From: Candidatus Acetothermia bacterium
GTDB lineage: Bacteria; Bipolaricaulota; Bipolaricaulia; Bipolaricaulales; Bipolaricaulaceae
Assembly: GCA_003566155.1 (NCBI GenBank)
Contig: PXEP01000027.1
Location: forward strand, 1-41,791
DNA length: 41,791 nt
Reading direction: 5' to 3'
The translations under genes and the position numbers were made by a program. Positions within the stretch are counted from its first letter, which is position 1. The number at the start of each line of letters is the position of its first letter. The notes beneath the pieces are model-generated. The model was not told where the DNA came from. It was given only the letters and a program-made list of their open reading frames with translations, and did no database searches. Positions 10,385-41,791 of the stretch are shown piece by piece.

Positions 10385-10909
10385 CTACCGATTGACCTCC
10401 AGCCGCACCACATCGCGCACCCAATAGGCGCCGGCCGATTCTGCTCCGTATTCATCGTTGCTTACCCGGCCGTCCTCAGGGAGCACCACGATCCGCGGCC
10501 CCTCCTCCCACGCCGGAGGAGCGACGCCGTCCTTGGCGTACGCCAGCACCACAGGATAACGGGGATCGTTCATCCGCTCGCGGGACAACGAAAGCCGGTA
10601 TCCGTCACTGGCAACCACGGTCACGCTTTCCGGCTGGAGCTCAGGGTACAAGTGGGCCAGGAGTTCCAATAGCGGCACCCCCCTGTATCGAGCAGGCGTA
10701 GACCAATTCTCGAACTGATTCTGATATGAGCCCTCTTGTTCCAGCGCAGGCAAGGCACGTAGCTCCGAGAGGGATAGTCCGACCTCCTCCGGGCCGACTA
10801 CGGTAACCAGCGTCTCCTGGGGCGAACCGGACCGCAATACAGCCAGCCCACCCAACACAAGGAGCACGCCCACGAACACCCCCCACCGAACAGGGCGCCT
10901 TATGGCCAC
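10385..10909 (-). CDS. Membrane-anchored single SUOX-like (oxidoreductase molybdopterin-binding fold) domain protein
   Basis: 174 residues: a basic N-terminus and one membrane anchor (about residues 8-26), then one extracytoplasmic domain. The pattern YRGVPLLELL, VTVVASDGYRLSLSRE, VVLAYAKDG, GPRIVVLPEDG and YWVRDVVRLEV follows the sulfite-oxidase (SUOX) fold of the PF00174 type. No cysteine is present in the domain, so the cysteine ligand of molybdenum in true sulfite oxidases is missing and enzyme activity is unlikely. GTG at 10909 was chosen because AGGAGG lies six to seven bases upstream and it overlaps the ecfT stop by ten bases; ATG at 10936 is the alternative. Last gene of the ECF operon; a ligand-capture or accessory role is inferred. 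Confidence 0.72.
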   Translation of the reverse strand: MAIRRPVRWGVFVGVLLVLGGLAVLRSGSPQETLVTVVGPEEVGLSLSELRALPALEQEGSYQNQFENWSTPARYRGVPLLELLAHLYPELQPESVTVVASDGYRLSLSRERMNDPRYPVVLAYAKDGVAPPAWEEGPRIVVLPEDGRVSNDEYGAESAGAYWVRDVVRLEVNR

Positions 10910-11679
10910 CGTGTACCTCCTCCACTCATAAACCATCCCACCAACGCCAACACAAGAAGCGAAAGAGCAATAACCAGTCTATCCCTCCACATCCACGGCA
11001 CCTCTTCCAGCGTGGTTCGCCGGCGGCGCGAGCCAAACCCCCTCGCCTGCATAGCCAGCGCCACTCCCTCGGCGCGGGCCAACGCCGACGCCAGTACCGG
11101 CAGCACCGTCCACCTTACATGGGAAGCCAGCCGCCATGGCCGCAAGCGCAACCCGCGCACTCGCTGTGCCTCGCGAACCCGGAAGTACTCGTGGCGAAAA
11201 AGCGGCAGAAATCGAAGCGCCAGAACCAACACGTACGTGTACCGGTAGGGAAGGCAACTGCCTGACAGCGCCGAGGCGAACTCCTCGGGACGGGTGGTGG
11301 CCACGAACAGCAAGCTCCCGCCCAACACGCCAAGGAACCGCAGCGCCATCTCGCCTCCCATCTGCAACCCCTCAGCGGTCACTGTGAGTGGTCCGAGTGT
11401 GGCCACGGTGCTCCCCGATACCACAACGGCCTGCAACACAAACAGAAATCCGCCGAAGGTGATCGCGGCGTGGAATGCCCTTCGGCGGGCAAGGCGTCTC
11501 CGCCCGATCACCATCGGAAGCAAGGCCAATGCCCCCTTAGCCACCAGGCCTGGAGCGGACAACACGGCCGCGGCGTGCGCGCACAGCAGGGCGAACTTGG
11601 CCAGCGGGTGGAACGTGGGCTGCTGCGCCCGCTCCATCGCCCATTCCATACCTTCCCCAGCGCGAAGCCGCACTACCAC
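10900..11679 (-). CDS. ecfT: ECF transporter transmembrane component EcfT
   Basis: 259 residues with four to six hydrophobic segments and the two cytoplasmic coupling regions of EcfT/CbiQ proteins. The second ends with the sequence ALAMQARGFGSRRR, containing the A-R-G motif that docks in the ATPase groove; the first lies near FRVREAQRVRGLR. EcfT transmits ATP hydrolysis to the substrate-binding S subunit. It starts with GTG inside the 3' end of the ATPase gene (7-base overlap, GGGAGGAG upstream) and overlaps the downstream SUOX-like gene. In YkoEDC-type systems this subunit is called YkoC. Confidence 0.88.
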   Translation of the reverse strand: MVVRLRAGEGMEWAMERAQQPTFHPLAKFALLCAHAAAVLSAPGLVAKGALALLPMVIGRRRLARRRAFHAAITFGGFLFVLQAVVVSGSTVATLGPLTVTAEGLQMGGEMALRFLGVLGGSLLFVATTRPEEFASALSGSCLPYRYTYVLVLALRFLPLFRHEYFRVREAQRVRGLRLRPWRLASHVRWTVLPVLASALARAEGVALAMQARGFGSRRRRTTLEEVPWMWRDRLVIALSLLVLALVGWFMSGGGTRWP

Positions 11680-13085
11680 TGCTCCTCCCAGTACTCAGGG
11701 GTGAACACCTGCTGGCCTTCTCTTCGCAGCTCCGCGAACACCTCATGCGTGGGTCCCAAATGGGTCCGCCGCCCCAGGAACAACACGCGATGTGCCAGTC
11801 GCGCCAACAACGGCAAGCGGTGTGACACAAGGACCACCGCCACCCCCGCGCGGCTAGCCTCGCTGATCTGCCGGGCCACCCAGGCAGCGTTGGCATGGTC
11901 CTGCCCGATAAACGGCTCGTCCATGAGCAAGACCCGCGGCCGGCCCGCCAACGCCAAGGCCACCGTCAGCCGCCTGCGTTCCCCGATGCTTAGTCGCAGA
12001 GGATGCTCGGAGGCCAACCCTTGTAGGGAAGCTTTCTCCAACCAGGCTTCCGTTTGATGAGCCTTGCATCCATTCAATGCAAATTCCTCGGCCACGGAGG
12101 GAGCAAACAGCTGATGGTGGGGCATCTGAAACACCATCCCCAGAAGACCGCGCCTCTCCCCAAGACCAAGCGCAGCCGGGTCGCGCCCTTCCACGCGCAC
12201 AGTCCCCCGCTGGGGAGCAGTCAAGCCCGCCAGAAGGCGGAGCACAGTAGATTTTCCGCTCCCGTTTGGGCCGGCCACCCCCAGCACCTCCCCCGGAGCA
12301 ACGGCGAACGAAAGCCCTCTCAGAAGCTCCTCCCCTTCAGGGTAGGAAAAGCGCAGACCCCGCGCCTCGAGTATGCCTGCGCCACCCGGAGCACAGGTAG
12401 CCCAGGGCACATCCCCCTCCCGGGCCGGGTACTCTGAGTCCAGGCATACGATGCGGGGCCGAAGGGACCACAGGGGCCCCAGGCGATGCTCGGCCATCAA
12501 CACGCCCCTGCCCTCCGTCGCCTGCCTGGCAAGGATGTAGAGCAGATCCTGTGCCCCCTGCGGATCGAGGTGCGCTGTTGGTTCGTCCAGAAGCAGAACT
12601 CCCGGCTCCAGGGCCAGCGCTGCAGCCAGAGCGGTGCGCTGTTTTTCCCCCCCGGACAGACTCCAGGTAGCCCTCTGAGCCAGCGGCGCCAGCCCCGTGG
12701 CCGAAAGCGCCCGATCCACCCGCGCGGCGATCTCACGCCGGGTCAATCCGAGGTTCTCCGGCCCGAAGGCTACTTCGTCGCGCACTCGCAGCGTGCACAA
12801 GCCGGCCTCGGGATCCTGCTGCACCAATCCCAGTCGCTGCCCTCGGCGGGCGAGGCTCCGGGGAGCGGGAGCCCCGTCCAGCAACACTTCCCCGGTTACC
12901 TCGGCAGGAACGCCCTCCGGTATGTAGCCCAAGGCTGTGTGCAGCAAGGTGCTCTTGCCCGAGCCAGAACGCCCTGCCAACACTACCGTCTCTCCCCGTT
13001 CCAATCCGCATGTGAAGTCCTCCAGCACGGGAGCCGACCGGGTGGGAAAACGCACCGTCAGCCGCCGTACCTCGAGGGCGCTCAT
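11673..13085 (-). CDS. ECF transporter ATPase, two fused ABC domains (YkoD-like)
   Basis: 470 residues holding two complete ABC ATPases in one chain. Domain 1: Walker A GRSGSGKST (39-46), Q-loop about 89, signature LSGGEKQR (143-150), Walker B VLLLDEPT (163-170), H-loop AEH (198-200). Domain 2: Walker A GPNGSGKST (272-280), signature LSIGERRR (365-372, second G replaced by I), Walker B VLLMDEP (385-391). After Walker B the second domain reads FIGQD instead of the usual D-loop, so the two sites are probably not equivalent. Fused ATPases are typical of the YkoEDC class of ECF transporters. The ATG overlaps the S-component stop by four bases. Confidence 0.9.
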   Translation of the reverse strand: MSALEVRRLTVRFPTRSAPVLEDFTCGLERGETVVLAGRSGSGKSTLLHTALGYIPEGVPAEVTGEVLLDGAPAPRSLARRGQRLGLVQQDPEAGLCTLRVRDEVAFGPENLGLTRREIAARVDRALSATGLAPLAQRATWSLSGGEKQRTALAAALALEPGVLLLDEPTAHLDPQGAQDLLYILARQATEGRGVLMAEHRLGPLWSLRPRIVCLDSEYPAREGDVPWATCAPGGAGILEARGLRFSYPEGEELLRGLSFAVAPGEVLGVAGPNGSGKSTVLRLLAGLTAPQRGTVRVEGRDPAALGLGERRGLLGMVFQMPHHQLFAPSVAEEFALNGCKAHQTEAWLEKASLQGLASEHPLRLSIGERRRLTVALALAGRPRVLLMDEPFIGQDHANAAWVARQISEASRAGVAVVLVSHRLPLLARLAHRVLFLGRRTHLGPTHEVFAELRREGQQVFTPEYWEEQW

Positions 13086-14116
13086 CTGATTTCCACGCTG
13101 ACCACGTCTCTCACCCAGAGACCCCCCGAGTGGCCGGGGGCGATCAGCCGTAGGCGGCCATCGTTCCTCACCAAGATGACCTCACTTCCTTCAGAAACGT
13201 CGGTAAGTGCAAAACTCGCCTGGTAGCCGTCGCGGCCGCGGACCACTACCTCGGCCGCGTCCGGCGAAGGACCTGCCGCACTGATGATCCGGCCAACAGG
13301 CACCCCGGTGTACGGCCGCTCCTCCTCATAGGCGATCGCTCCGGCGAGCTCCGCTACAACGGTCACCTCCTGGTGTTCCCATTCCTCGTAGGAGAACTCC
13401 AGCGGCTGCTCCACCGCCCCGTAGATGCGGGCCGAGGCACCCCCGCCGAACGGCTGCCACACGTTCAGGTAGTAGTACCCGCCACCGGCCACGACAGCCA
13501 ACGCTGTTCCCAACGCCATCCAGGTGCGGGCCCGCCCCGGGCGTTTCACCGGGGAGCGGAACAGTCCGGCCCGCGACAGCGCGCCGAGGAGGTCGTAGGC
13601 CAACCAACCGCCCAGCAACGCCCCGGACAGGCCCGCCAAACCGGCCATGAACAGAATGTACGTGGCGGGGATGCCCGCGAAATAGAGAGCCTGAAAGACG
13701 AATACGTTCGACGCGGCAGCTCCCATCCCGGCCGCCGCGTACGTCCACAGGGCGGGGCGGGGGTTAAGCGAGAGTCCCAGATCCACCACCGCCCCTTGGA
13801 CAGCAGACACCAGTACGATGACCACCCCGTGGGTCCCGCCCATGAGGAATTCCACCAACCCTTTTGCCACGCCAGTGAGGGTTCCCGCGCCGAAGCGCCG
13901 GGTTAGCCCTGCGGCGAGGAGGGGCCAGAGAACGTGCAGTCCAGCCAGTATTTGACCGGCCCCGAACGGAACCCCCAAGACTCGGTTGATCAAATTCCCT
14001 AGATAACCGACATATGCGGACATGACCCCGCCAACCGCGGCCATGGCCGCCGCAAGGACGAGCTGGCGCACTGTGAAGCGGCCTAGTCCTGTTTGATGGC
14101 AATCCGCTTGACCCAC
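13082..14116 (-). CDS. ECF S component (YkoE-like) fused to an extracytoplasmic SUOX-like domain
   Basis: 344 residues. Residues 15-195 hold about six hydrophobic segments; the block GLHVLWPLLAAGLTRRFGAG, followed by a VEFLMGG turn and later GLSGALLGGWLAYDLL, resembles YkoE, the S component implicated in uptake of thiamine-pyrimidine (HMP) precursors. A seventh membrane segment (about 205-227) then leads to a C-terminal domain (235-344) with YTGVPVGRII, VVRGRDGYQASF and GLWVRDVVSVEI, the same SUOX-like pattern as in the neighbouring genes and again without cysteine. S components normally lack such a domain. Start GTG overlaps the preceding gene by 34 bases. The YkoE match is from memory; the substrate is unproven. 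Confidence 0.75.
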   Translation of the reverse strand: MGQADCHQTGLGRFTVRQLVLAAAMAAVGGVMSAYVGYLGNLINRVLGVPFGAGQILAGLHVLWPLLAAGLTRRFGAGTLTGVAKGLVEFLMGGTHGVVIVLVSAVQGAVVDLGLSLNPRPALWTYAAAGMGAAASNVFVFQALYFAGIPATYILFMAGLAGLSGALLGGWLAYDLLGALSRAGLFRSPVKRPGRARTWMALGTALAVVAGGGYYYLNVWQPFGGGASARIYGAVEQPLEFSYEEWEHQEVTVVAELAGAIAYEEERPYTGVPVGRIISAAGPSPDAAEVVVRGRDGYQASFALTDVSEGSEVILVRNDGRLRLIAPGHSGGLWVRDVVSVEIR

Positions 14117-15519
14117 GGCACCCTCTCCATGTCCTTAGTGGATTCGGCCTGAGCATCCCACACAAACGTCACCGGCCCCCCGTCTTCGGTCGACAAAAAC
14201 CTTCCTTCCCGCTTCAACGCCAGCAGGTAGCGATCATCGCGGGCCAGTAGCTCCGAGGGAACTTCCGCCCGGTGTCCCTCGCGCCCTTCGATGACCACCG
14301 TGTACCCCGTCTGGGCAAGCCGATCGTTGAAGTGCTCATCGTCGTAGTGAATGCCGCGCTCCTCAGGCGGATACCGCTCATCGTCGACGTAGGCCACGAG
14401 GCGCCATAAAGGAAGACCCGTGTAGGAATAGCTTTCCCCCCCGGGCCCCTCTCCTTGCACCGAATATGTCTTGCAGGGACAACCTACCCCCGCCTCTAAT
14501 ACCTCTCGCGAAAGCTCCCGCTCCACATGACCCTCCAGGTGCAAGCGGTAAGGTTCATACACTCCCTCCACCTTCACCCGCACGATCATTTTCCCCGAGC
14601 GTGCCGCTTCGAACCGGGGGATTTCCGAACCTATCCTCACCAAACGGAAATGCCCAGGGTCGAACGGCATGTACTCCCCGTCCTCCATGAATGCCAAGAT
14701 CCAGCGGCTGTCCTCGTCCTCGAGCTCACCGTAGCTGTAGAGCATGCGGTAGCCGTCTTCGGCCACGGCCTCCACCTGCGCATCGTCCGGCCAGTTACCA
14801 AGCAGCACCGTCAACGGAACACCCGCCCACTTCCGCTCCACTTCCGCGCCTATGGCCGGGACATAGGTTCCCCGGCCCACCACCACCTCGTGCGAAGTCA
14901 CCAAATCGCGGAGCGTGAATCGATGCAACTTTGGAGCAACCACTTCGACTTTGGCTATCTCGGCCCAGGGGACAGTATCCAGCGTCTCCGGAAGGCTCAT
15001 CGTGCTTCCATCCCATTCATCAAGCACCCACGCGACATCGCTCACCAATATGCCGTCAGCCAGGGCAGCCGCCTCACAGTCATCCGTGTCCAAGGACAAC
15101 GTCTCCCTCACCTGCTCCACTGAGACGTGGCCGTCCTCAGGGAAGAACACAAGGGCCGGGCCTCCCGGCCACTCAGCGCCGTCACGTAGAAAGGCGATCA
15201 CCGGCTCGCCCAGCGCGGACTGCCCCAGGGCAACCTCCGAGGGCACGGTACACCTCCTTCCATCAGCCGCAATGACGTGCACCGCCCGTCCTCCCAGTCC
15301 TCCCATCGCTTCCAGCACCACCGAGAGGGAGATGCCCCGGTAGCTGTAAGCGGCTCCATTCTGGCCAGCGGTTAGCATCTCTTCCTCCCACGGCCAGACA
15401 CCCACCTCCGGATGCAGGACCACTAGCCTCTCCCCTATCTCAAGGGTCACCGTAGCCGCGCCGCCGCCGAACGCAGCGACCACCATACCCAGCAGTACAC
15501 ACAAAGCTTTCACGCTCAT
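14083..15519 (-). CDS. Secreted protein of three tandem SUOX-like domains
   Basis: 478 residues starting with a signal peptide (MSVKALCVLL... ending near AAA, residues 1-23) and then three repeats of about 140 residues. Each has the pattern Y-(S/T)-G-(I/L)-P/S-L, a DGxR or EDGYR strand, a strand ending in (F/M)xxDG or LKREG, and a closing V-(A/K)-x-(V/I)-x-(V/I) strand, the signature of the SUOX fold seen in the two neighbouring proteins. Cysteines exist (for example CPC in repeat 3) but not at a recognisable Moco-ligand site. The ATG at 15519 overlaps the regulator's stop (ATGA) and has GGAAGGAGGA upstream. Likely an extracytoplasmic binding partner of the ECF transporter; this is inference. 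Confidence 0.7.
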   Translation of the reverse strand: MSVKALCVLLGMVVAAFGGGAATVTLEIGERLVVLHPEVGVWPWEEEMLTAGQNGAAYSYRGISLSVVLEAMGGLGGRAVHVIAADGRRCTVPSEVALGQSALGEPVIAFLRDGAEWPGGPALVFFPEDGHVSVEQVRETLSLDTDDCEAAALADGILVSDVAWVLDEWDGSTMSLPETLDTVPWAEIAKVEVVAPKLHRFTLRDLVTSHEVVVGRGTYVPAIGAEVERKWAGVPLTVLLGNWPDDAQVEAVAEDGYRMLYSYGELEDEDSRWILAFMEDGEYMPFDPGHFRLVRIGSEIPRFEAARSGKMIVRVKVEGVYEPYRLHLEGHVERELSREVLEAGVGCPCKTYSVQGEGPGGESYSYTGLPLWRLVAYVDDERYPPEERGIHYDDEHFNDRLAQTGYTVVIEGREGHRAEVPSELLARDDRYLLALKREGRFLSTEDGGPVTFVWDAQAESTKDMERVPWVKRIAIKQD

Positions 15520-16181
15520 TCCTCCTTCCAAGGCAGCGTTCGGATCGCGGCAGGGGGGATGGCCACGTGCACTTCCTCGCCGGAAGGCATCTCCCATTCA
15601 TTCACTAGCAGCGCATTCAGTTCGACCCCCCGACAGGCAAGCACGATGTTGGTTAGCTGACCCAACTTCCGCGTCTTCACCGGCCGAGCCCGCAATAGAT
15701 TCGCTTCCGTCATCACAGGGTCACCACCCACAAACACCACCACGGCCTCCGGGGGAATCACCACCGTCAACTTGTCCGCGGCCGCAAAACTGACTGCTCT
15801 AAGCCTCTCTTGACCTAACGCAACAACCACCCTGGCCGCATCCCGCTCGGTCACCCTCGCCACAAAGGTGTTCTTACGCCATAGATCCGGGTGGTGTGGG
15901 GAGAAGTCCTCCCTTCCGCCAAAGCTGAGGCGGCCGGCCCACAGAAGCGACTCCAACAACTCTTTAGACGTCCCCCCAGCAACAAGCAGATCCGCAAGCG
16001 ACAGTTCAAGGACTTCCGCCAATGCCCGCAACTCCGGCAGTGGGGGCGGAGGCCGATCGCCCTGTTCAATCCTCCACAGACGCGAAGCATCCATTCCCAC
16101 CCTGCGCGCCGCGTCTCGCAAGGTCATTCCCCGCGCCACACGCGCAGTGCGTACCAGTGTGCCAAACTCCGGAACGGCCAT
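15516..16181 (-). CDS. XRE-family transcriptional regulator with TOBE-like C-terminal domains
   Basis: 221 residues. Residues 5-60 form a Cro/CI helix-turn-helix (TLRDAARRVGMDASRLWRIE, then QGDRPPPPLPELRALAEVL). The C-terminal half contains two stretches with the TOBE/Mop pattern, the clearer one starting EANLLRAR and ending EEVHVAIPPAAIRTL. TOBE domains often bind molybdate, tungstate or other small ligands in regulators and transporter ATPases. The ATG at 16181 was chosen, not the ORF start at 16211, because a consensus promoter occupies 16190-16218 and would place the RNA start at or just before that ATG (leaderless mRNA). First gene of the ECF operon and probably autoregulated through the palindrome at 16204-16219. 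Confidence 0.75.
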   Translation of the reverse strand: MAVPEFGTLVRTARVARGMTLRDAARRVGMDASRLWRIEQGDRPPPPLPELRALAEVLELSLADLLVAGGTSKELLESLLWAGRLSFGGREDFSPHHPDLWRKNTFVARVTERDAARVVVALGQERLRAVSFAAADKLTVVIPPEAVVVFVGGDPVMTEANLLRARPVKTRKLGQLTNIVLACRGVELNALLVNEWEMPSGEEVHVAIPPAAIRTLPWKEE

Positions 16182-16189
16182 AGTGGTGC

Positions 16190-16218
16190 ATGCTAGCCCT
16201 GTTGTTGTCAATTGTCAA
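16190..16218 (-). promoter_or_regulatory. Sigma-70-type promoter of the ECF operon (leaderless)
   Basis: On the minus strand TTGACA (16218-16213) is followed by a 17-base spacer and TAGCAT (16195-16190). The ATG of the XRE gene begins only eight bases after the -10 box, so the transcript should start at or within a few bases of the start codon. There is no ribosome site, in agreement with a leaderless message. Confidence 0.75.
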
Positions 16219-16219
16219 C
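16204..16219. promoter_or_regulatory. Palindromic operator candidate overlapping the -35 box
   Basis: The 16-base sequence GTTGTCAATTGTCAAC is an inverted repeat with 14 of 16 positions symmetric (GTTG-N-CAATTG-N-CAAC). It covers the -35 box of the XRE gene promoter. XRE regulators commonly bind such sites next to their own genes, so autorepression is inferred. The site is about 40 bases upstream of the -35 of the divergent thi promoter and might affect that too. Confidence 0.6.
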
Positions 16220-16287: not shown

Positions 16288-16299
16288 GTTATGAGAAGC

Positions 16300-16390
16300 G
16301 GTAACTAGGGGAGCCTGTAGGGCTGAGAGGAGGTCACGGACCTCGACCCTTGGAACCTGACCTGGGTAATGCCAGCGGAGGAAGGTTACC
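16300..16390 (+). ncRNA. TPP riboswitch (THI box)
   Basis: The conserved THI-box elements are all present: GGGGAGCC, CTGAGAGG, ACCCTTGGAACCTGACCTGG, GTAATGCCAGCGGAGGAAGG. The P1 stem is formed by GGTAAC (16300-16305) and GTTACC (16385-16390). The thiL ATG begins at 16391, the very next base. The only ribosome site, GGAGGAAGG (16377-16385), is part of the conserved aptamer. Ligand binding should therefore hide the ribosome site directly, without a separate expression platform. Controls thiL and the downstream uptake genes. Confidence 0.95.
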
Positions 16391-17284
16391 ATGCGCCGGC
16401 GAATCCCATACCTGGGTCGGGTGTGGGAGACAGTGGATGAATGGCAGCTACTTGAGAGAATCGCGCGGCGCGTCCCCAAAGCGGGCGACGATTGTGCTGT
16501 GGTGCCGTGGAGAACCACGAACCTGTTGTTTACCTTGGACATGCTCCACCGGACAACGGATTTCCCTACTGGGACAACCCCTTACACCATCGGGTGGCGA
16601 TCGGTCGCCGTATCTTTGTCCGACATAGCAGCGATGGGAGGTGTCCCGCTGGCCGTACTGCTGGGGCTCTCCGTTCCGGAGTTCGATCCTGCTTTCACCG
16701 ACGAGGTACTGTCCGGAGCGCAAGACTGCTGTATGGCCGCCGGGAGTGAGCTGGCAGGCGGTGATCTGGATTCGTCTGAGGAGCTATTCCTTTCCTCGTG
16801 CGCATTGGGGGAGTGCGCGCGCCCCGTGCTCCGCCGAGGAGCCCAACCAGGAGAGCTGGTCTGCATAACGGGACCTCTGGGGGCTACTGCGCAAGCACTG
16901 CACCTTATGGACGACGGGCAGGCGGAGGCGGCAAACACGCTGCTTAGGTTCGCTCCCCGTACGTCTGAGGGGCAGCGGATCTCGAAGGTTGCCTCCAGCA
17001 TGATCGATATCTCCGACGGGTTGGCCCATTCGCTACACCTGCTGGCTGAAGCCTCGGGAGTAGGGTTCCGTGTGGAGAGCGAACGAATCCCATGGGTCCC
17101 CGGCTTGCAAGATCCCGCTTTTAGCTATGGAGAGGATTTTGAGCTGCTGTACACAGTGCCAGAGCGGCTCCACCGTCCGCAGCTGGGAACGGCAATTGGT
17201 CGGGTAACCAACAGTGGGGTGTATCTCTCCGGTCCCGATGGGGTCCCCCCCCTCCCCGACCGGGGGTACAGCCATGGCCGGTAA
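16391..17284 (+). CDS. thiL: Thiamine-monophosphate kinase
   Basis: 297 residues, slightly shorter than the usual 310-330. ThiL features: GDDCAVV near residue 32 (metal-binding aspartates), a TLDMLHRTTDFP segment corresponding to the family's D-x-L-V-E-x-x-H-F, GWRSVAVSLSDIAAMGG, ITGPLGATA and the ISDGLA motif. It phosphorylates thiamine monophosphate to TPP. The ATG immediately follows the riboswitch P1 stem and has its ribosome site in the aptamer. The 3' end overlaps the next gene by 11 bases. Confidence 0.92.
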   Translation: MRRRIPYLGRVWETVDEWQLLERIARRVPKAGDDCAVVPWRTTNLLFTLDMLHRTTDFPTGTTPYTIGWRSVAVSLSDIAAMGGVPLAVLLGLSVPEFDPAFTDEVLSGAQDCCMAAGSELAGGDLDSSEELFLSSCALGECARPVLRRGAQPGELVCITGPLGATAQALHLMDDGQAEAANTLLRFAPRTSEGQRISKVASSMIDISDGLAHSLHLLAEASGVGFRVESERIPWVPGLQDPAFSYGEDFELLYTVPERLHRPQLGTAIGRVTNSGVYLSGPDGVPPLPDRGYSHGR

Positions 17285-18275
17285 ACTGTCCCGGGAGGTG
17301 CTGGAGCGGCTCGTCCTGGCCAAGGGTACGCTGCGGAAGGACGTCTTGTGGGGCCCTCGCGCTGGAGGCGATTTTGCGGCAGTAGAACTGGACGAGGAGA
17401 GGGCTCTGGTCACAGCGTGTGATCCCTTGGCCGCGTCCCCACAACTGGGCTGGGCTCGCTCGGGCTGGCTGGCGTTTCACCTGGTGGCCGTCGATGTCGC
17501 CGTATCGGGAATAGCCCCGGCGTACATCTGCGCGGGATGGACCCTGCCTGCGAACATCCCCGACGACGCGCTGGGAGAACTCCTGGAAGCCTTCCGGAGA
17601 GAGGGCAACCGTTTCGGGGTCGAGGGAGTGGCCGGGCACACGGGACGGTACACCGAAGTCAACTACCCATGGGTGGGAGCGGCGACCGCAGTGGGCATCG
17701 GCCCGCGCAGCGCGCTGCGACTGCCGTCCACAGCCCAGCCGGGGGATGCCCTCTTGCTGTGGGGAAGGCCCGGCCTGGAAGCGGCTGTATTATTGTGCTT
17801 AACCAGTCGTAGAATGGTTCCCGCAAAGATTGTGCGCTGGGCTGAGGATGAGTTCTACAACCTGTCATCGCTATCCCCGGCCCTGGAGGCAGCAGGGACA
17901 GAGGGCCTCCGCTGCATGCATGACATCACAGAGGGCGGTGTCATCGGGGCAGCGGCGGAACTGTCCTCAGCCATGGGACGTGGGCTCACATTGAACACGC
18001 AAGCTATCGCTGCGGACCCCCAGGTACTGACAGCATTGGAGCCGCGTGGGCTGTCCCCGCTAACCGTCACCAGTTGTGGTTCGTTGCTGGCGGTGGCCTC
18101 CCCGTCGGCTGCCAAGCGACTCGCCGGCAGGGGGTTTCAACTCGTGGGAGAAGTACGAGCGGACGACGAGCTGCTGGAACAGCGCCAAGGCCAGACAAAG
18201 CCGCTTGTCCCCCCGGAACATGATCCGTTCTGGGATATCTACACGGAGGAAGTCTCGAGAAAGGAGGGAACATGA
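17274..18275 (+). CDS. PurM/AIR-synthase superfamily protein of unknown role (ThiL/HypE-like)
   Basis: 333 residues from the ATG at 17274, which lies in the end of thiL. It has an N-terminal half with GGDFAAV, LVTACDPLAASP and AVDVAVSGIAP, and a C-terminal half with HDITEGGVIGAAAELSSAMG, all features of the PurM ATP-binding fold shared by AIR synthase, HypE, SelD and ThiL. It lacks the C-terminal cysteine motif of HypE and the SelD N-terminal cysteine or selenocysteine, so it is neither. Position inside a TPP-riboswitch operon between thiL and thiB suggests a thiamine-related phosphotransfer, perhaps on imported thiamine. The function is not known. Confidence 0.8.
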   Translation: MAGKLSREVLERLVLAKGTLRKDVLWGPRAGGDFAAVELDEERALVTACDPLAASPQLGWARSGWLAFHLVAVDVAVSGIAPAYICAGWTLPANIPDDALGELLEAFRREGNRFGVEGVAGHTGRYTEVNYPWVGAATAVGIGPRSALRLPSTAQPGDALLLWGRPGLEAAVLLCLTSRRMVPAKIVRWAEDEFYNLSSLSPALEAAGTEGLRCMHDITEGGVIGAAAELSSAMGRGLTLNTQAIAADPQVLTALEPRGLSPLTVTSCGSLLAVASPSAAKRLAGRGFQLVGEVRADDELLEQRQGQTKPLVPPEHDPFWDIYTEEVSRKEGT

Positions 18276-19297
18276 GACGCTCGATTATTGTGCTGGTTGG
18301 ATTTGTGTTGGCCATAGGTTTATCGAGTACGGCGGACGAGCTTCTCGTCTACACATATGACTCGTTCGTTGCCTGGGGGCCGGCCCAGGAGATCAAGGAG
18401 AAGTTCGAGGAGACCCACCCGGGCACGGAGCTCGTCTGGATTGCACCGGGCGACTCTTCTGAGATGTTGTCGCGCCTCCTCGGAGAGCTGGAGCTGGGGT
18501 TGCCTACCGCAGACGTGTTCTTGGGCGTCGCCGATGTGGAGGTACACCGGGCGTTGGCCCATGAGGCATTTCTGGGCCTAGAGCCGCGGCTCATTCCAAA
18601 CCTCCAGTACGTACCCGAGGACATCCGCCTGGAAGAGGATGCATATGTCGTCCCCTACGACTACGGCTACGTGACTTTTGTATACGACGCCGACGCCTTG
18701 CCCGCCGAACACGTCCCCACGACGCTGGAGGACCTGTTACACCCGGAGTTAAAGGGCAACATCGTCCTTCAGGACCCCCGGACATCGTCCCCCGGTCTTT
18801 CGTTCTTGTTGTGGACCATCGCCCATTTCGGTGACGGTTGGACCGACTTCTGGCGGGAACTCCTTCCCAACGTGCTGACGGTGACCAAGGGCTGGACTGA
18901 ATCGTTTGAGATGTTCGAAGCCGGAGAGGCGCCGATCGTCGTCTCATACGCTACCGACGAGGCTTACTCGTACATCGTCCACGGTGACCTCCGCTACCGG
19001 GTCTTGACCCCGGGTGGCGAAGGCTATCGCCAGGTGGAGTACATGGGCGTCGTCAGGACAACCGATAGCCCAGAGCTTGCCCACTCGCTGCTTGACATCG
19101 TGCTCTCACACCAGATACAAGAGCTCATCCCCACCAGCCAATGGATGTTCCCGGCTAACCAGGACGCCGACACGCCCGAGGATTTCCAACAGTACGCCAT
19201 CATCCCTGAGAACCCTGTGGCCCTGGATCTGGACATCGTGGAGGAGCACTTGGAGGAATGGATAAGCGAGTGGCAGCGGATTCTGATCGAAAGCTAG
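18272..19297 (+). CDS. thiB: Thiamine ABC transporter substrate-binding protein
   Basis: 341 residues. A signal peptide (about residues 1-20) is followed by ELLVYTYDSFVAWGPAQEIK, the very characteristic mature start of ThiB/TbpA, which binds thiamine, TMP and TPP. Other family features are ADVFLGV, VPYDYGYVTFVYD, LEDLLHPELKGNIVLQDPRT (a close family match) and SYATDEAYSY. The ATG overlaps the previous gene by four bases (ATGA), with AAGGAGGG upstream. It delivers the ligand to ThiP. Confidence 0.93.
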   Translation: MRRSIIVLVGFVLAIGLSSTADELLVYTYDSFVAWGPAQEIKEKFEETHPGTELVWIAPGDSSEMLSRLLGELELGLPTADVFLGVADVEVHRALAHEAFLGLEPRLIPNLQYVPEDIRLEEDAYVVPYDYGYVTFVYDADALPAEHVPTTLEDLLHPELKGNIVLQDPRTSSPGLSFLLWTIAHFGDGWTDFWRELLPNVLTVTKGWTESFEMFEAGEAPIVVSYATDEAYSYIVHGDLRYRVLTPGGEGYRQVEYMGVVRTTDSPELAHSLLDIVLSHQIQELIPTSQWMFPANQDADTPEDFQQYAIIPENPVALDLDIVEEHLEEWISEWQRILIES

Positions 19298-20967
19298 TCA
19301 CTTACCGCTGGGCGGGGTGGGCCCTGGCGCTTGTGCCATTGGCCTTCCTGGCCGTGGCGTTCTTCTCCCCACTGTGGGAGGTGCTGCGCCGGGGCCTGCT
19401 CGTTCAGGGGCAGTGGAGCACCGATCTTCTGAGAGCAGTTCTAACCGACCAGTATGTTCGGCACCTGCTCAACTTCACCCTCCAGCAAGCCCTGCTTTCG
19501 ACTGTACTGTCCTTGCTGCTAGGGTTCCCTCTGGGATGGCTGCTTACCCGGTACAGTTTCCCCGGCAAGGGGACCTTACGGGCGCTGACCCTGGTCCCGT
19601 TTGTGCTCCCCCCGATCACCGTAGCCCTGGGTTTCGTATTGTTCTTTGGGCACGCCGGCCACCTGAATCGCGCCCTGATGTGGCTTTGGGGACTGTCCGA
19701 GCCTCCCATTCGCTTGCTGTACTCCCTATGGGCGATCGTGTTGGCGCATGCCTTTTACAACGCCCCGGTGGTGGCCCGCTTCGTAAACGTGGCTTGGGAG
19801 GCCCAAGACCCAGCGCTCACCGAGGCCGCCCGTATGCTAGGGGCTGGCCGGGGGCGATCGTTTATCACCGTCACGATTCCCGGCCTGTTCCCCGCGGTGC
19901 TGTCCGCTATGGCTCTGGTATTCGTTTTGTGCACCTTGTCGTTCGCTATACCCTTGGCCCTGGGAGGGGCAAGATACGCTACAGTGGAGGTAGGAGTGTA
20001 TCTGCTGGCCCGGGTGTACGTGGATCTGCCCCGCACAGCAGCGTTGGCCGCTGTGGTCCTCGGAATCTCGCTTATGCTTACCTATCTATACCTACGCGGC
20101 GGCGGACTGTTCCATACGTTGAGCTCCGCCGATAGACGCCAACCCACCGTACCCCTGGTCAGCCGAAGCCACCCGGCCCGGCTGTTGTGGCTAGGATACC
20201 TCGTCCCGGCTGCGGTGGTCTTCCTTGGGCCCATCGGGGCAGTGATCGCCGACTCATTCCTCCGAGCCGCGCCTGGAGGCACCGCTCCGACGCTCCACTG
20301 GTACAGTCTCGCCCTGTCTCCCGACACTAGCCCTTTCCTGGGCGCCTCGCCCTTGGGGAGCATAACCACCAGCATCGCTGTGGCCAGCGCCGCTGCTGCA
20401 GGAGCGCTTGCCCTCGGGCTGGCGATCAGCGCCAGCCTCCGCACTGTGCGTTCCCGTGTCCTGGAGACAGTGCTGATGGCCCCGCTGGGCGTCTCTTCAG
20501 TGGTTATGGGCCTGGCATTGCTTTTGGCCTTTCGTCGACCGCCCCTTTCCTACCTCCCCCCGGGGCCGTGGCCACTTGTGCTCGCCCATGTGCTGATCAT
20601 CTACCCGTTTGTCGTTCGTTCGATCCGCCCCGTTTGGCAGTCCCTGGACCCGGCATTGGTTGAGGCTGCGCGGACCCTGGGGGCCAGCCGACGCGAGGCG
20701 TTTCGCAATGTTGAGCTCCCCTTGCTCAGGCCGGCGATGCTGGTTGCAGGCGCGCTGGCGTTTGCCTTGTCGTTGGGTGAGATGACGGCAGCGGCTATGC
20801 TCGCCCGGCCGGGGCTTAACACCATCCCCCTGGCGATATACCAGTTCCTCTCCGCCCGTCGGTTCGGGGCTGCATCAGCCATGGCCACCGTGCTCATGGT
20901 CGTCACGGCGGTAGCCATCTTGCTGTGGGAGCGCCTGGGGCGCATAGGAGAGGCGACACAGCAATGA
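19258..20967 (+). CDS. thiP: Thiamine ABC transporter permease, two-domain
   Basis: 569 residues with about twelve membrane segments in two homologous halves, as in ThiP and iron FbpB-type permeases. EAA loops are EAARMLGAGRGRSF (first half) and EAARTLGASRREAF (second half), the contact points for the two ATPase subunits. It starts in the last 40 bases of thiB with the ATG at 19258 (MDKRVAADSD), a basic N-terminus before the first membrane segment. Its TGA overlaps the ATG of the ATPase gene. Confidence 0.92.
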   Translation: MDKRVAADSDRKLVTYRWAGWALALVPLAFLAVAFFSPLWEVLRRGLLVQGQWSTDLLRAVLTDQYVRHLLNFTLQQALLSTVLSLLLGFPLGWLLTRYSFPGKGTLRALTLVPFVLPPITVALGFVLFFGHAGHLNRALMWLWGLSEPPIRLLYSLWAIVLAHAFYNAPVVARFVNVAWEAQDPALTEAARMLGAGRGRSFITVTIPGLFPAVLSAMALVFVLCTLSFAIPLALGGARYATVEVGVYLLARVYVDLPRTAALAAVVLGISLMLTYLYLRGGGLFHTLSSADRRQPTVPLVSRSHPARLLWLGYLVPAAVVFLGPIGAVIADSFLRAAPGGTAPTLHWYSLALSPDTSPFLGASPLGSITTSIAVASAAAAGALALGLAISASLRTVRSRVLETVLMAPLGVSSVVMGLALLLAFRRPPLSYLPPGPWPLVLAHVLIIYPFVVRSIRPVWQSLDPALVEAARTLGASRREAFRNVELPLLRPAMLVAGALAFALSLGEMTAAAMLARPGLNTIPLAIYQFLSARRFGAASAMATVLMVVTAVAILLWERLGRIGEATQQ

Positions 20968-21998
20968 GTTTTCTTGTCCTATCAGGTATCGACAAGCGAT
21001 TTGGTTCCGTTGTCGCAGTGGACAACCTAGAGCTTGAGGTTGATCAGGGGAAGCTCGTCGCCATCATCGGTCCTTCTGGATGCGGGAAGACAACAACCCT
21101 GCGGATTATCGCCGGACTGGAAAGGGCGGACGCTGGCCGTGTCTACTTACGGGGTAAGGACGTCACATCGCTGCCTCCCGAGGCCCGCACGGTGGGCCTT
21201 GTGTTCCAAAGCTATGCGCTCTTCCCCCACATGACTGTGGAGAGCAACGTGGGCTACGGACTGCGAGGGACTACTCGCCGTGACCGCAAGCGGCGTGTGG
21301 CAGAGCTTCTGCGCCTGGTTGGGCTTGAGGAACACACAAGGAGACGTCCCCATCAGCTTTCGCAAGGGCAGAAACAACGGGTAGCGTTGGCCAGGGCATT
21401 GGCGCCTCAACCCGACGTGCTGCTGTTGGATGAGCCCCTGGCTGCCCTGGACGCTGCCCTGCGCATAAGCTTGCGCAGCGAGCTTAAGTCCATGCTGCGC
21501 CAGCTGGGGGTTACCTCCCTATACGTAACACACGACCAAGCAGAGGCTCTTGCTCTGGCCGACCGGTTGGCCGTGATGCACGCCGGCGCGCTGGAACAAC
21601 AGGGCTCGCCGCAGCAGGTGTATAGGCAACCCCAAACTCCGTTCGTGGCACGGTTCGTAGGTCGGGCCAACCTTTGGCCTGTGCGGATAACGGAAGTGAG
21701 CAACGGCCAAGCCGTGGTGCATGCCGGTGGTGAGATGTTCACCGCACCGGCTGGTCAGATGCGAGAAGGAGACAAGGCATATCTCTTCTTCCGGCCGGAG
21801 GATGTTCAGCCCGGCAGCGGTATCCCCTTCCAGGTTAAACAGGCCGAGTATCAAGGTGACAGATGGGAGGTGCAGGCACGGCGCGGGGCGTTGGAGGTCC
21901 TCGTGTACTTACCCGCTGATGCTCCTCCGGAGTCCGAGCTTGAGCTTGCCTTCCCTCCGTCGACCCTCAAGTTGCTCTCCCGAGAAACCGACCGTTGA
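20964..21998 (+). CDS. thiQ: Thiamine ABC transporter ATP-binding protein, long PotA-like form
   Basis: 344 residues: an ABC ATPase with Walker A GPSGCGKTT, signature LSQGQKQRVALARAL (LSQGQ instead of LSGGQ), Walker B VLLLDEPLAALD and H-loop THDQ. Residues about 240-340 form a TOBE/MOI-type regulatory tail (NLWPVRITEV, FFRPEDVQPG), which the 230-residue enterobacterial ThiQ lacks. The ATG overlaps the thiP stop (ATGA). By position it energises ThiBP; by sequence alone it could equally be called a PotA/FbpC-type ATPase. Confidence 0.88.
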   Translation: MSFLVLSGIDKRFGSVVAVDNLELEVDQGKLVAIIGPSGCGKTTTLRIIAGLERADAGRVYLRGKDVTSLPPEARTVGLVFQSYALFPHMTVESNVGYGLRGTTRRDRKRRVAELLRLVGLEEHTRRRPHQLSQGQKQRVALARALAPQPDVLLLDEPLAALDAALRISLRSELKSMLRQLGVTSLYVTHDQAEALALADRLAVMHAGALEQQGSPQQVYRQPQTPFVARFVGRANLWPVRITEVSNGQAVVHAGGEMFTAPAGQMREGDKAYLFFRPEDVQPGSGIPFQVKQAEYQGDRWEVQARRGALEVLVYLPADAPPESELELAFPPSTLKLLSRETDR

Positions 21999-41639: not shown

Positions 41640-41704
41640 GGGGCACTGAAGGGCAAACCGTCCGAAAGGACGGGACGCAAAGCTGCGGGCCTACGGGTGA
41701 AACG
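41640..41704 (+). ncRNA. Partial c-di-GMP-I-like (GEMM) element
   Basis: The 5' half of the GEMM motif is clear: GGGCAAACC, hairpin CCGTCC-GAAA-GGACGG, GGGACGCAAAGC and GGGCCTA. The 3' half (the GCCGGG(C/T)TACCG strand) is not present before the next element starts. It is either a truncated copy or depends on the 3' half of the second copy. Confidence 0.55.
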
Positions 41705-41780
41705 AACGCGAAAAAGGCAAACCCGGAGCGATCCGGGGACGCAAAGCCACGGGTCTCACCGAGACCGCCGGGCTACCGCG
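41705..41780 (+). ncRNA. c-di-GMP-I riboswitch (GEMM)
   Basis: All conserved parts appear in order: AAAAAGGCAAACC, a CCGG-stem hairpin, GGGGACGCAAAGCCACGGGTCT, the CACC loop, GAGACC and GCCGGGCTACCGCG. It lies at the right edge and reads rightward, so the regulated gene is outside the window. Such switches often control motility, pili, surface or competence genes. Confidence 0.88.
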
Positions 41781-41791
41781 CTTTGCACCTA

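Follow-up and report, generated by a model that had tools for sequence, protein, structure and literature searches.

In Bacillus subtilis, YkoEDC (PDB 5EDL) is a group I energy-coupling factor (ECF) transporter, whereby an S component, a double ATPase and an EcfT protein are encoded in a single dedicated operon. The same layout, with a homologous S component, is found in the stretch of DNA analyzed here (the window), 41,791 nucleotides of contig PXEP01000027.1 from the Candidatus Acetothermia bacterium assembly GCA_003566155.1. Unlike YkoEDC, this transporter has a sulfite oxidase-fold (SUOX) domain and an added helix fused to its S component, as well as secreted SUOX partners; the Trp, Asp131 and Tyr46 of the YkoE pocket are changed, and regulation and neighbours related to the molybdenum/tungsten (Mo/W) cofactor are found in place of those for thiamine pyrophosphate (TPP). 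Sulfite oxidase and YedY/MsrP have the fold in common with these domains, but the metal-ligating Cys and the enzyme partner genes are missing here. PruR (7KOS, 7RKB), a periplasmic pterin-binding protein, likewise has a SUOX fold lacking the Mo-ligating Cys, and its D/N102, Y104 and W160 have equivalents in two of the proteins described below; unlike PruR, which has a DcpA/DTB signalling partner, the present domains are part of an importer, either in tandem or fused to the S component or a phosphoesterase. ModABC, TupABC, WtpABC and MOT1 have regulatory context and neighbourhood in common with some copies of the system, but import the oxyanion rather than the cofactor, and their proteins are unrelated. 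ECF transporters with extracytoplasmic accessory domains are represented by CbiMNQO and by NikMNQO with NikK/NikL, where the folds are different and the ligands are metal ions. An earlier reading of the window (the original prediction) took ECF importers to use no extracytoplasmic parts, which was too strong, as metal ECF systems are known that have CbiN or NikN/NikK/NikL-type parts.

In the usual view, each cell makes the Mo/W-pterin cofactor for its own use. Exogenous uptake of the molybdenum cofactor (Moco) was, according to a 2022 paper, yet to be examined or observed outside Caenorhabditis elegans (PMC9793310), and a 2026 review described how pterins cross membranes as unknown (PMC13259868). 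Based on sequence comparison and structure prediction, the operon in the window is likely to encode a group I (YkoE-type) ECF importer salvaging external W/Mo-pterin cofactor, with tungstopterin (Tuco) or a molybdopterin form as the likeliest ligand. It is probably the first candidate in prokaryotes for a system that acquires this cofactor ready-made rather than building it. No described equivalent was found in the open-access literature for an ECF transporter with molybdopterin, Moco uptake or tungstate, in line with the earlier statement that the arrangement matched no described system.

Architecture of the ECF operon

Six open reading frames (ORFs) run along the minus strand from 16211 to 10385, each overlapping or abutting the next, and all were found where they had originally been placed; the start of the proposed span, 10385, stands, and its end was corrected from 16219 to 16211, where the XRE ORF stops. 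The first gene (15516..16211) encodes this XRE regulator (HTH_31, 8e-15), with a C-terminal ModC/ModE-like tandem TOBE (Mop-type) part. It is followed by SUOX3 (14083..15597), a secreted protein of 504 aa with a signal peptide at about residues 27–50 and three SUOX-fold domains, recognized by its whole-protein PF00174 score, AlphaFold2 and Foldseek. Next is S-SUOX (13082..14116; PF09819, 1.5e-15), in which a YkoE-type S component and a SUOX tail make up 344 aa. The double ATPase EcfA-EcfA' (11673..13085; two ABC_tran domains, cbiO-type) and EcfT (10900..11679; CbiQ family, 1.5e-27) come next, and the last gene (10385..10936) encodes SUOXa, a protein of 183 aa with a PruR-like single SUOX-fold domain and a transmembrane segment at residues 16–34 as N-terminal anchor. 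The operon thus holds the dedicated EcfT and the two ATPase domains of a group I system. The genome of the window is 1.93 Mb in size and 83% complete, and its nearest named relatives are metagenome-assembled genomes (MAGs) of Bipolaricaulota/Acetothermia.

Within S-SUOX, the S component spans residues ~14–185, the added helix 195–220 and the SUOX-fold domain ~228–343. The ECF S fold was recognized both by profile (YkoE 5EDL, 3e-13) and by Foldseek (5EDL, TMt 0.78). If the six-helix core ends on the cytosolic side, as in YkoE, the added helix before the tail would place the SUOX domain outside, and by this analogy the tail is predicted to be extracytoplasmic.

Tungsten enzymes and loss of cofactor biosynthesis

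Scanning 84,980 species yielded 127 relatives, from which 80 loci were kept. The tungstopterin enzyme aldehyde ferredoxin oxidoreductase (AFOR; AFOR_C domain) was found in 60 of the 61 carrier genomes tested, that is in 24/24 Bipolaricaulota carriers and 36/37 others. The biosynthetic genes showed the opposite pattern. Among the 100 relatives compared, of which 24 have S-SUOX (a carrier count that includes the window's own genome and gene fragments), MoaC was found in 33, MoaE in 18 and MoeA in 34. Among the 24 carriers these fall to 1, 0 and 1, respectively, the one genome being G003, against 32, 18 and 33 among the 76 non-carriers (Fisher p = 3e-4, 0.005 and 1.8e-4). For MoeA, the difference persists among AFOR-positive genomes (p = 0.005) and when counted by genus (p = 4e-4). 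In family f2 the genera partition cleanly, with MoeA in 0/18 carriers against 7/15 (p = 0.0015), and archaeal carriers have MoeA in 1/18 cases, compared with 61/120 among sampled members of the class Thermoplasmata (p = 0.002). Because MoeA is missing from most Bipolaricaulota and archaeal carriers, the complete cofactor is a better guess for the ligand than cyclic pyranopterin monophosphate (cPMP) or metal-free molybdopterin (MPT), and because a metal oxyanion alone cannot replace the missing MoaC and MoaE, tungstate is a weaker one.

Conservation and taxonomic spread

The S-SUOX fusion is present in 80/80 kept loci, and a further SUOX-domain gene lies nearby in 76/80. Among the remaining four, two lie on contigs of ~3 kb, one is in a gapped assembly (L126) and one is the G001 locus (L073). 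The sister species (G001/L035) has the operon without SUOX3, indicating that this part is dispensable. All PF09819 (YkoE-type) S components in the 100 relatives belong to the S-SUOX carriers. The order XRE, SUOX3, S-SUOX, EcfAA, EcfT, SUOXa is identical in about 20 loci, so the arrangement is not a matter of chance.

Some 25 Bipolaricaulota genomes have the system, and full-length S-SUOX fusions also occur in Bacillota, Thermoplasmata and Asgard archaea. Carriers in Bacillota include Syntrophomonadaceae, Desulfotomaculaceae, Thermovorax and Anoxynatronum, among others, and archaeal carriers comprise Thermoplasmata, related euryarchaeal MAGs and the Asgard Heimdall-, Hermod- and Thorarchaeota. 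In the tree, Bipolaricaulota form one strongly supported group and Bacillota one moderately supported group, with archaea making up the remainder.

Riboswitches in Bacillota and probable regulation by XRE-TOBE

Moco/Tuco riboswitches (RF01055) numbered 23 in an Rfam scan of 36 Bacillota loci. For 15 of them, in 13 loci, the next ORF encodes SUOX or S-SUOX, with gaps of 32–427 nt; three others are separated from a downstream SUOX gene by at least one gene, and four precede Tup-type substrate-binding genes. The Bacillota homologues are thus placed in the Moco/Tuco riboswitch regulon; RF01055 was detected neither in the window nor in the archaeal loci scanned. The P3 stem is missing in all 13 RF01055 RNAs inspected, and Regulski et al. 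associated the P3-lacking variant with the tungsten cofactor (PMC2408646). At L101 (13215–17016), another type of ECF S component (PF12822) follows an RF01055 element and lies beside a xanthine-dehydrogenase-type molybdoenzyme; the Mo/W regulon may include a second ECF transporter here.

XRE-TOBE is the first operon gene in 13/80 loci, all of Bipolaricaulota type, and was seen in those loci only. The TOBE-like part proposed for this XRE regulator was borne out, since ModC (3D31) is matched in its TOBE region by columns 117–235 of the regulator family profile (1e-6). It is presumed to be a molybdate/tungstate-responsive regulator of the operon.

The SUOX domains and their putative pterin site

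Pfam scores for PF00174 were 6.8e-6 for S-SUOX, 8.3e-7 for SUOX3 and only 0.015 for SUOXa; for SUOX3, the whole-protein score passes the cut-off while each single stretch is below significance. At profile level, the S-SUOX tail matched sulfite dehydrogenase 2XTS (1.6e-5) and SUOXa matched SUOX enzymes by hhalign (1.9e-6), and the best PDB match of the SUOX3 and SUOXa profiles was PruR, annotated as "pterin binding protein", with weak E-values of 0.006 and 0.06. Foldseek searches with the AlphaFold2 model of SUOX3 (pLDDT 77) returned sulfite oxidase and PruR (TMt 0.72), and those with the S-SUOX model (pLDDT 82) returned SUOX enzymes and PruR for the tail; YedY was among the matches of the SUOX parts. 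A viral fold search gave no match. Pfam, family profiles and Foldseek thus agree on the SUOX fold that had been proposed for the five domains, and the predicted assignment is firm once family alignments are used.

Pterin contacts in PruR are D/N102, Y104 and W160 (PMC13259868). Their equivalents in S-SUOX, D296, Y298 and W334, are kept in 79–81 of 81 fusions, and those in SUOXa, D111, Y113 and W172, are invariant in 12/12 single domains from three groups. The Mo-ligating Cys (Cys64) is invariant among bona fide SUOX enzymes from this clade. Its column aligns with G259 in S-SUOX and N73 in SUOXa, and SUOX3 domain 2 has no equivalent Cys. With the metal-ligating Cys lost, a role for the SUOX domains as catalytic molybdoenzymes was rejected. 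They share the Cys-less fold with PruR, and the operon content includes no DcpA/DTB regulator.

In the third domain of SUOX3, a CxC motif (C373/C375) is invariant in 20/20 homologues and is a possible metal or dithiolene site.

Comparison of the S component with YkoE

In YkoE, the thiamine pocket is formed by Trp49, which stacks thiamine, together with Glu77, Gln95, Asp131 and Tyr46 (PMC5037267). Only Glu77 (E89, 80/81) and, roughly, Gln95 (Q/E107) are retained in the S-SUOX family; Trp49 is replaced by His61 (80/81), Asp131 by Gln142 (80/81) and Tyr46 by Ala/Ser58. An Rfam scan of the window placed a TPP riboswitch (RF00059, 68.4 bits; 16297..16400, plus strand) on the divergent thi operon and none on the ECF operon, and no TPP riboswitch was found in the Bacillota or archaeal homologous loci scanned. 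As this thiL-thiBPQ operon has a TPP riboswitch of its own, the neighbourhood that had suggested a thiamine precursor is regulated separately, and among the carrier loci compared, thi genes adjoin the system in this genus only (the window and G001). On pocket residues, riboswitch location and neighbourhood, thiamine was rejected as the ligand, and with it the corresponding part of the original prediction. The thi operon itself (16391–21998, plus strand) is led by the TPP riboswitch and encodes ThiL and a ThiB/ThiP/ThiQ-like ATP-binding cassette (ABC) transporter. Also encoded there is a second protein resembling AIR synthase, which is most similar to HypE/ThiL/SelD but scores well below their cut-offs.

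Neighbouring and accessory genes

In Pelotomaculum (L107), MoeA and ModABC are encoded upstream of S-SUOX, and at L133 the neighbours are TupA, TupB, an ATPase and MOT1. A calcineurin-like phosphoesterase, mostly SUOX-fused, was found in 48 of 71 loci (non-Bipolaricaulota or late-listed), and a kinase-like gene (RIO/APH-type, with scores near cut-offs) in 24 loci, in most of which it abuts EcfT.

Several other SUOX proteins were recorded in the course of these comparisons. Large secreted proteins of Bacillota (L107, 12700–17007; L142, 4921–7149) combine SUOX with PKD and Shr-like HID domains, or with SLH domains, an arrangement for cell-surface display of several SUOX domains. In a relative that has no ECF genes (L196, G017:C4, 5084–13788), a secreted SUOX3-like protein lies inside a Mo cluster, in the order ModA, SUOX, ModC-like ATPase, MoaA, MoaC, MoaE, MoeA, MogA-like. 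Several Bipolaricaulota encode a small secreted SUOX-like protein (L002, 1312–1830; L202, 2889–3392; L204, 2338–2916), flanked by a sugar ABC binding protein on one side and a zinc-type alcohol dehydrogenase on the other. Small secreted SUOX-like proteins elsewhere in the window's genome were rejected as parts of the system, the one at L002 lying beside sugar ABC genes and the one at L004 beside unrelated genes. At the edge of the window, two adjoining c-di-GMP-I-type riboswitch aptamers (RF01051 and RF03167) occupy 41642–41781 on the plus strand.

Discussion

The original prediction named two points that could refute its central idea of SUOX-fold domains serving an ECF importer, the fold and co-occurrence in the neighbourhoods of relatives; the fold and a strict co-occurrence both support the idea well. 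Of the ligands it had named, thiamine falls away, and the group of molybdate, tungstate and molybdopterin is strongly supported by riboswitch placement, AFOR, Moa/Moe loss, neighbours and pterin-site residues. Within that group, import of the oxyanions tungstate or molybdate, with SUOX as metal-oxyanion capture domains, is unlikely. The TOBE-like regulator, the Moco/Tuco riboswitch and the Mod/Tup neighbours fit it too, and since the riboswitch also controls oxyanion transporters, it cannot by itself tell cofactor from metal. However, tungstate or molybdate alone would be no help to carriers lacking MoaC, MoaE and MoeA, and TupABC, ModABC or MOT1 already adjoin the system in several loci. Moreover, the S component and SUOX domains come from families with organic (pyrimidine or pterin) ligands, and the phosphoesterase and kinase-like neighbours would be left without a role. 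Import of a pterin precursor (cPMP or metal-free MPT) or another free pterin, to be completed by the cell, appears quite unlikely: the conserved PruR-type residues, the binding of small pterins by PruR (PMC13259868) and the MoeA of many Bacillota carriers are consistent with it, but Bipolaricaulota carriers lacking MoaE and MoeA, and archaeal carriers lacking MoeA, could not finish a precursor by the known route. For import of thiamine or 4-amino-5-hydroxymethyl-2-methylpyrimidine (HMP) as by YkoEDC, homology of the S component and the adjoining thi operon in the window and G001 are offset by the three pocket replacements, the TPP riboswitch confined to the divergent operon and the RF01055 elements of Bacillota, leaving this very improbable. 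Least credible of all, and almost to be dismissed, is a role of the SUOX proteins as redox enzymes or PruR-like pterin signalling proteins that are only co-regulated with an ECF transporter. PruR offers a precedent (PMC13259868), and SUOX3-like proteins do occur apart from ECF genes, in the mod-moa cluster of G017 and as orphans in genus g12; against this, SUOX is covalently joined to the S component in every kept locus, every YkoE-type S gene in the 100 relatives is a carrier's, the metal-ligating Cys is lost and no DcpA-type partner was found.

Several observations weigh against salvage of the W/Mo-pterin cofactor as the function. The Trp of the PruR site is missing from all three SUOX3 domains, and the site in the published PruR structure is truncated and has been judged too small to hold Moco (PMC13259868). 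MoeA is kept in 25/32 Bacillota carriers, where the system would supplement synthesis, and in family f1 the mutual exclusion of MoeA and S-SUOX is not significant (p = 1). Several AFOR-positive Bipolaricaulota genera (g5, g12 and others) lack MoaC/MoeA as well as S-SUOX, including the one-contig, near-complete genomes G005 and G015, which are AFOR-positive without MoaC, MoaE, MoeA or S-SUOX; AFOR can therefore be supplied in another way. In a SUOX profile search, G004 and G007 each showed a SUOX3 orthologue on or close to the end of a contig and are possibly unassembled (hidden) carriers; an orphan SUOX3 turned up in the g12 genomes G012 and G018, and nothing convincing for a second importer in the g5 genomes. 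Most of the genomes are MAGs, the window's own being incomplete.

For cofactor salvage, the following cycle is proposed. Outside the cell, the secreted and anchored SUOX domains would bind the cofactor reversibly, as the pterin site is kept and the metal-ligating Cys is gone; unable to ligate the metal through Cys, they would be able to let go of it. Where present, the fused or neighbouring calcineurin-like phosphoesterase would trim phosphate or nucleotide, and the ligand would then move to the SUOX tail of S-SUOX and from there into the membrane pocket of its S component. Import would be driven by EcfT and the double ATPase, and the kinase-like neighbour may re-phosphorylate the ligand inside. 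The Bacillota operon is under a Moco/Tuco riboswitch, whose role is probably taken by XRE-TOBE in Bipolaricaulota.

The fuller claim, for which the balance of evidence tips modestly in favour, is that this is the first recognized prokaryotic importer of intact W/Mo-pterin and a complete salvage route, made up of an extracellular phosphoesterase, relay domains that bind the pterin and possibly a kinase inside the cell. It would replace the whole Moa/Moe pathway in those lineages of Bipolaricaulota, Thermoplasmata and Asgard archaea that still depend on tungstopterin enzymes, and would imply cross-feeding in anaerobic communities. Among possible exceptions, Regulski et al. listed P3-lacking Moco RNAs of Syntrophomonas wolfei that precede "sulphite oxidase" genes, putatively Moco-utilizing (PMC2408646); as a lead, the present system may explain them. 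If the function is as proposed, a widespread, riboswitch-controlled ECF system would supply a transporter for Mo/W-pterin and explain organisms that have tungsten enzymes and no MoaC/MoeA. A cofactor supposed to be non-exchangeable would then be cross-fed and would serve anaerobic consortia as a new currency, much like a vitamin.

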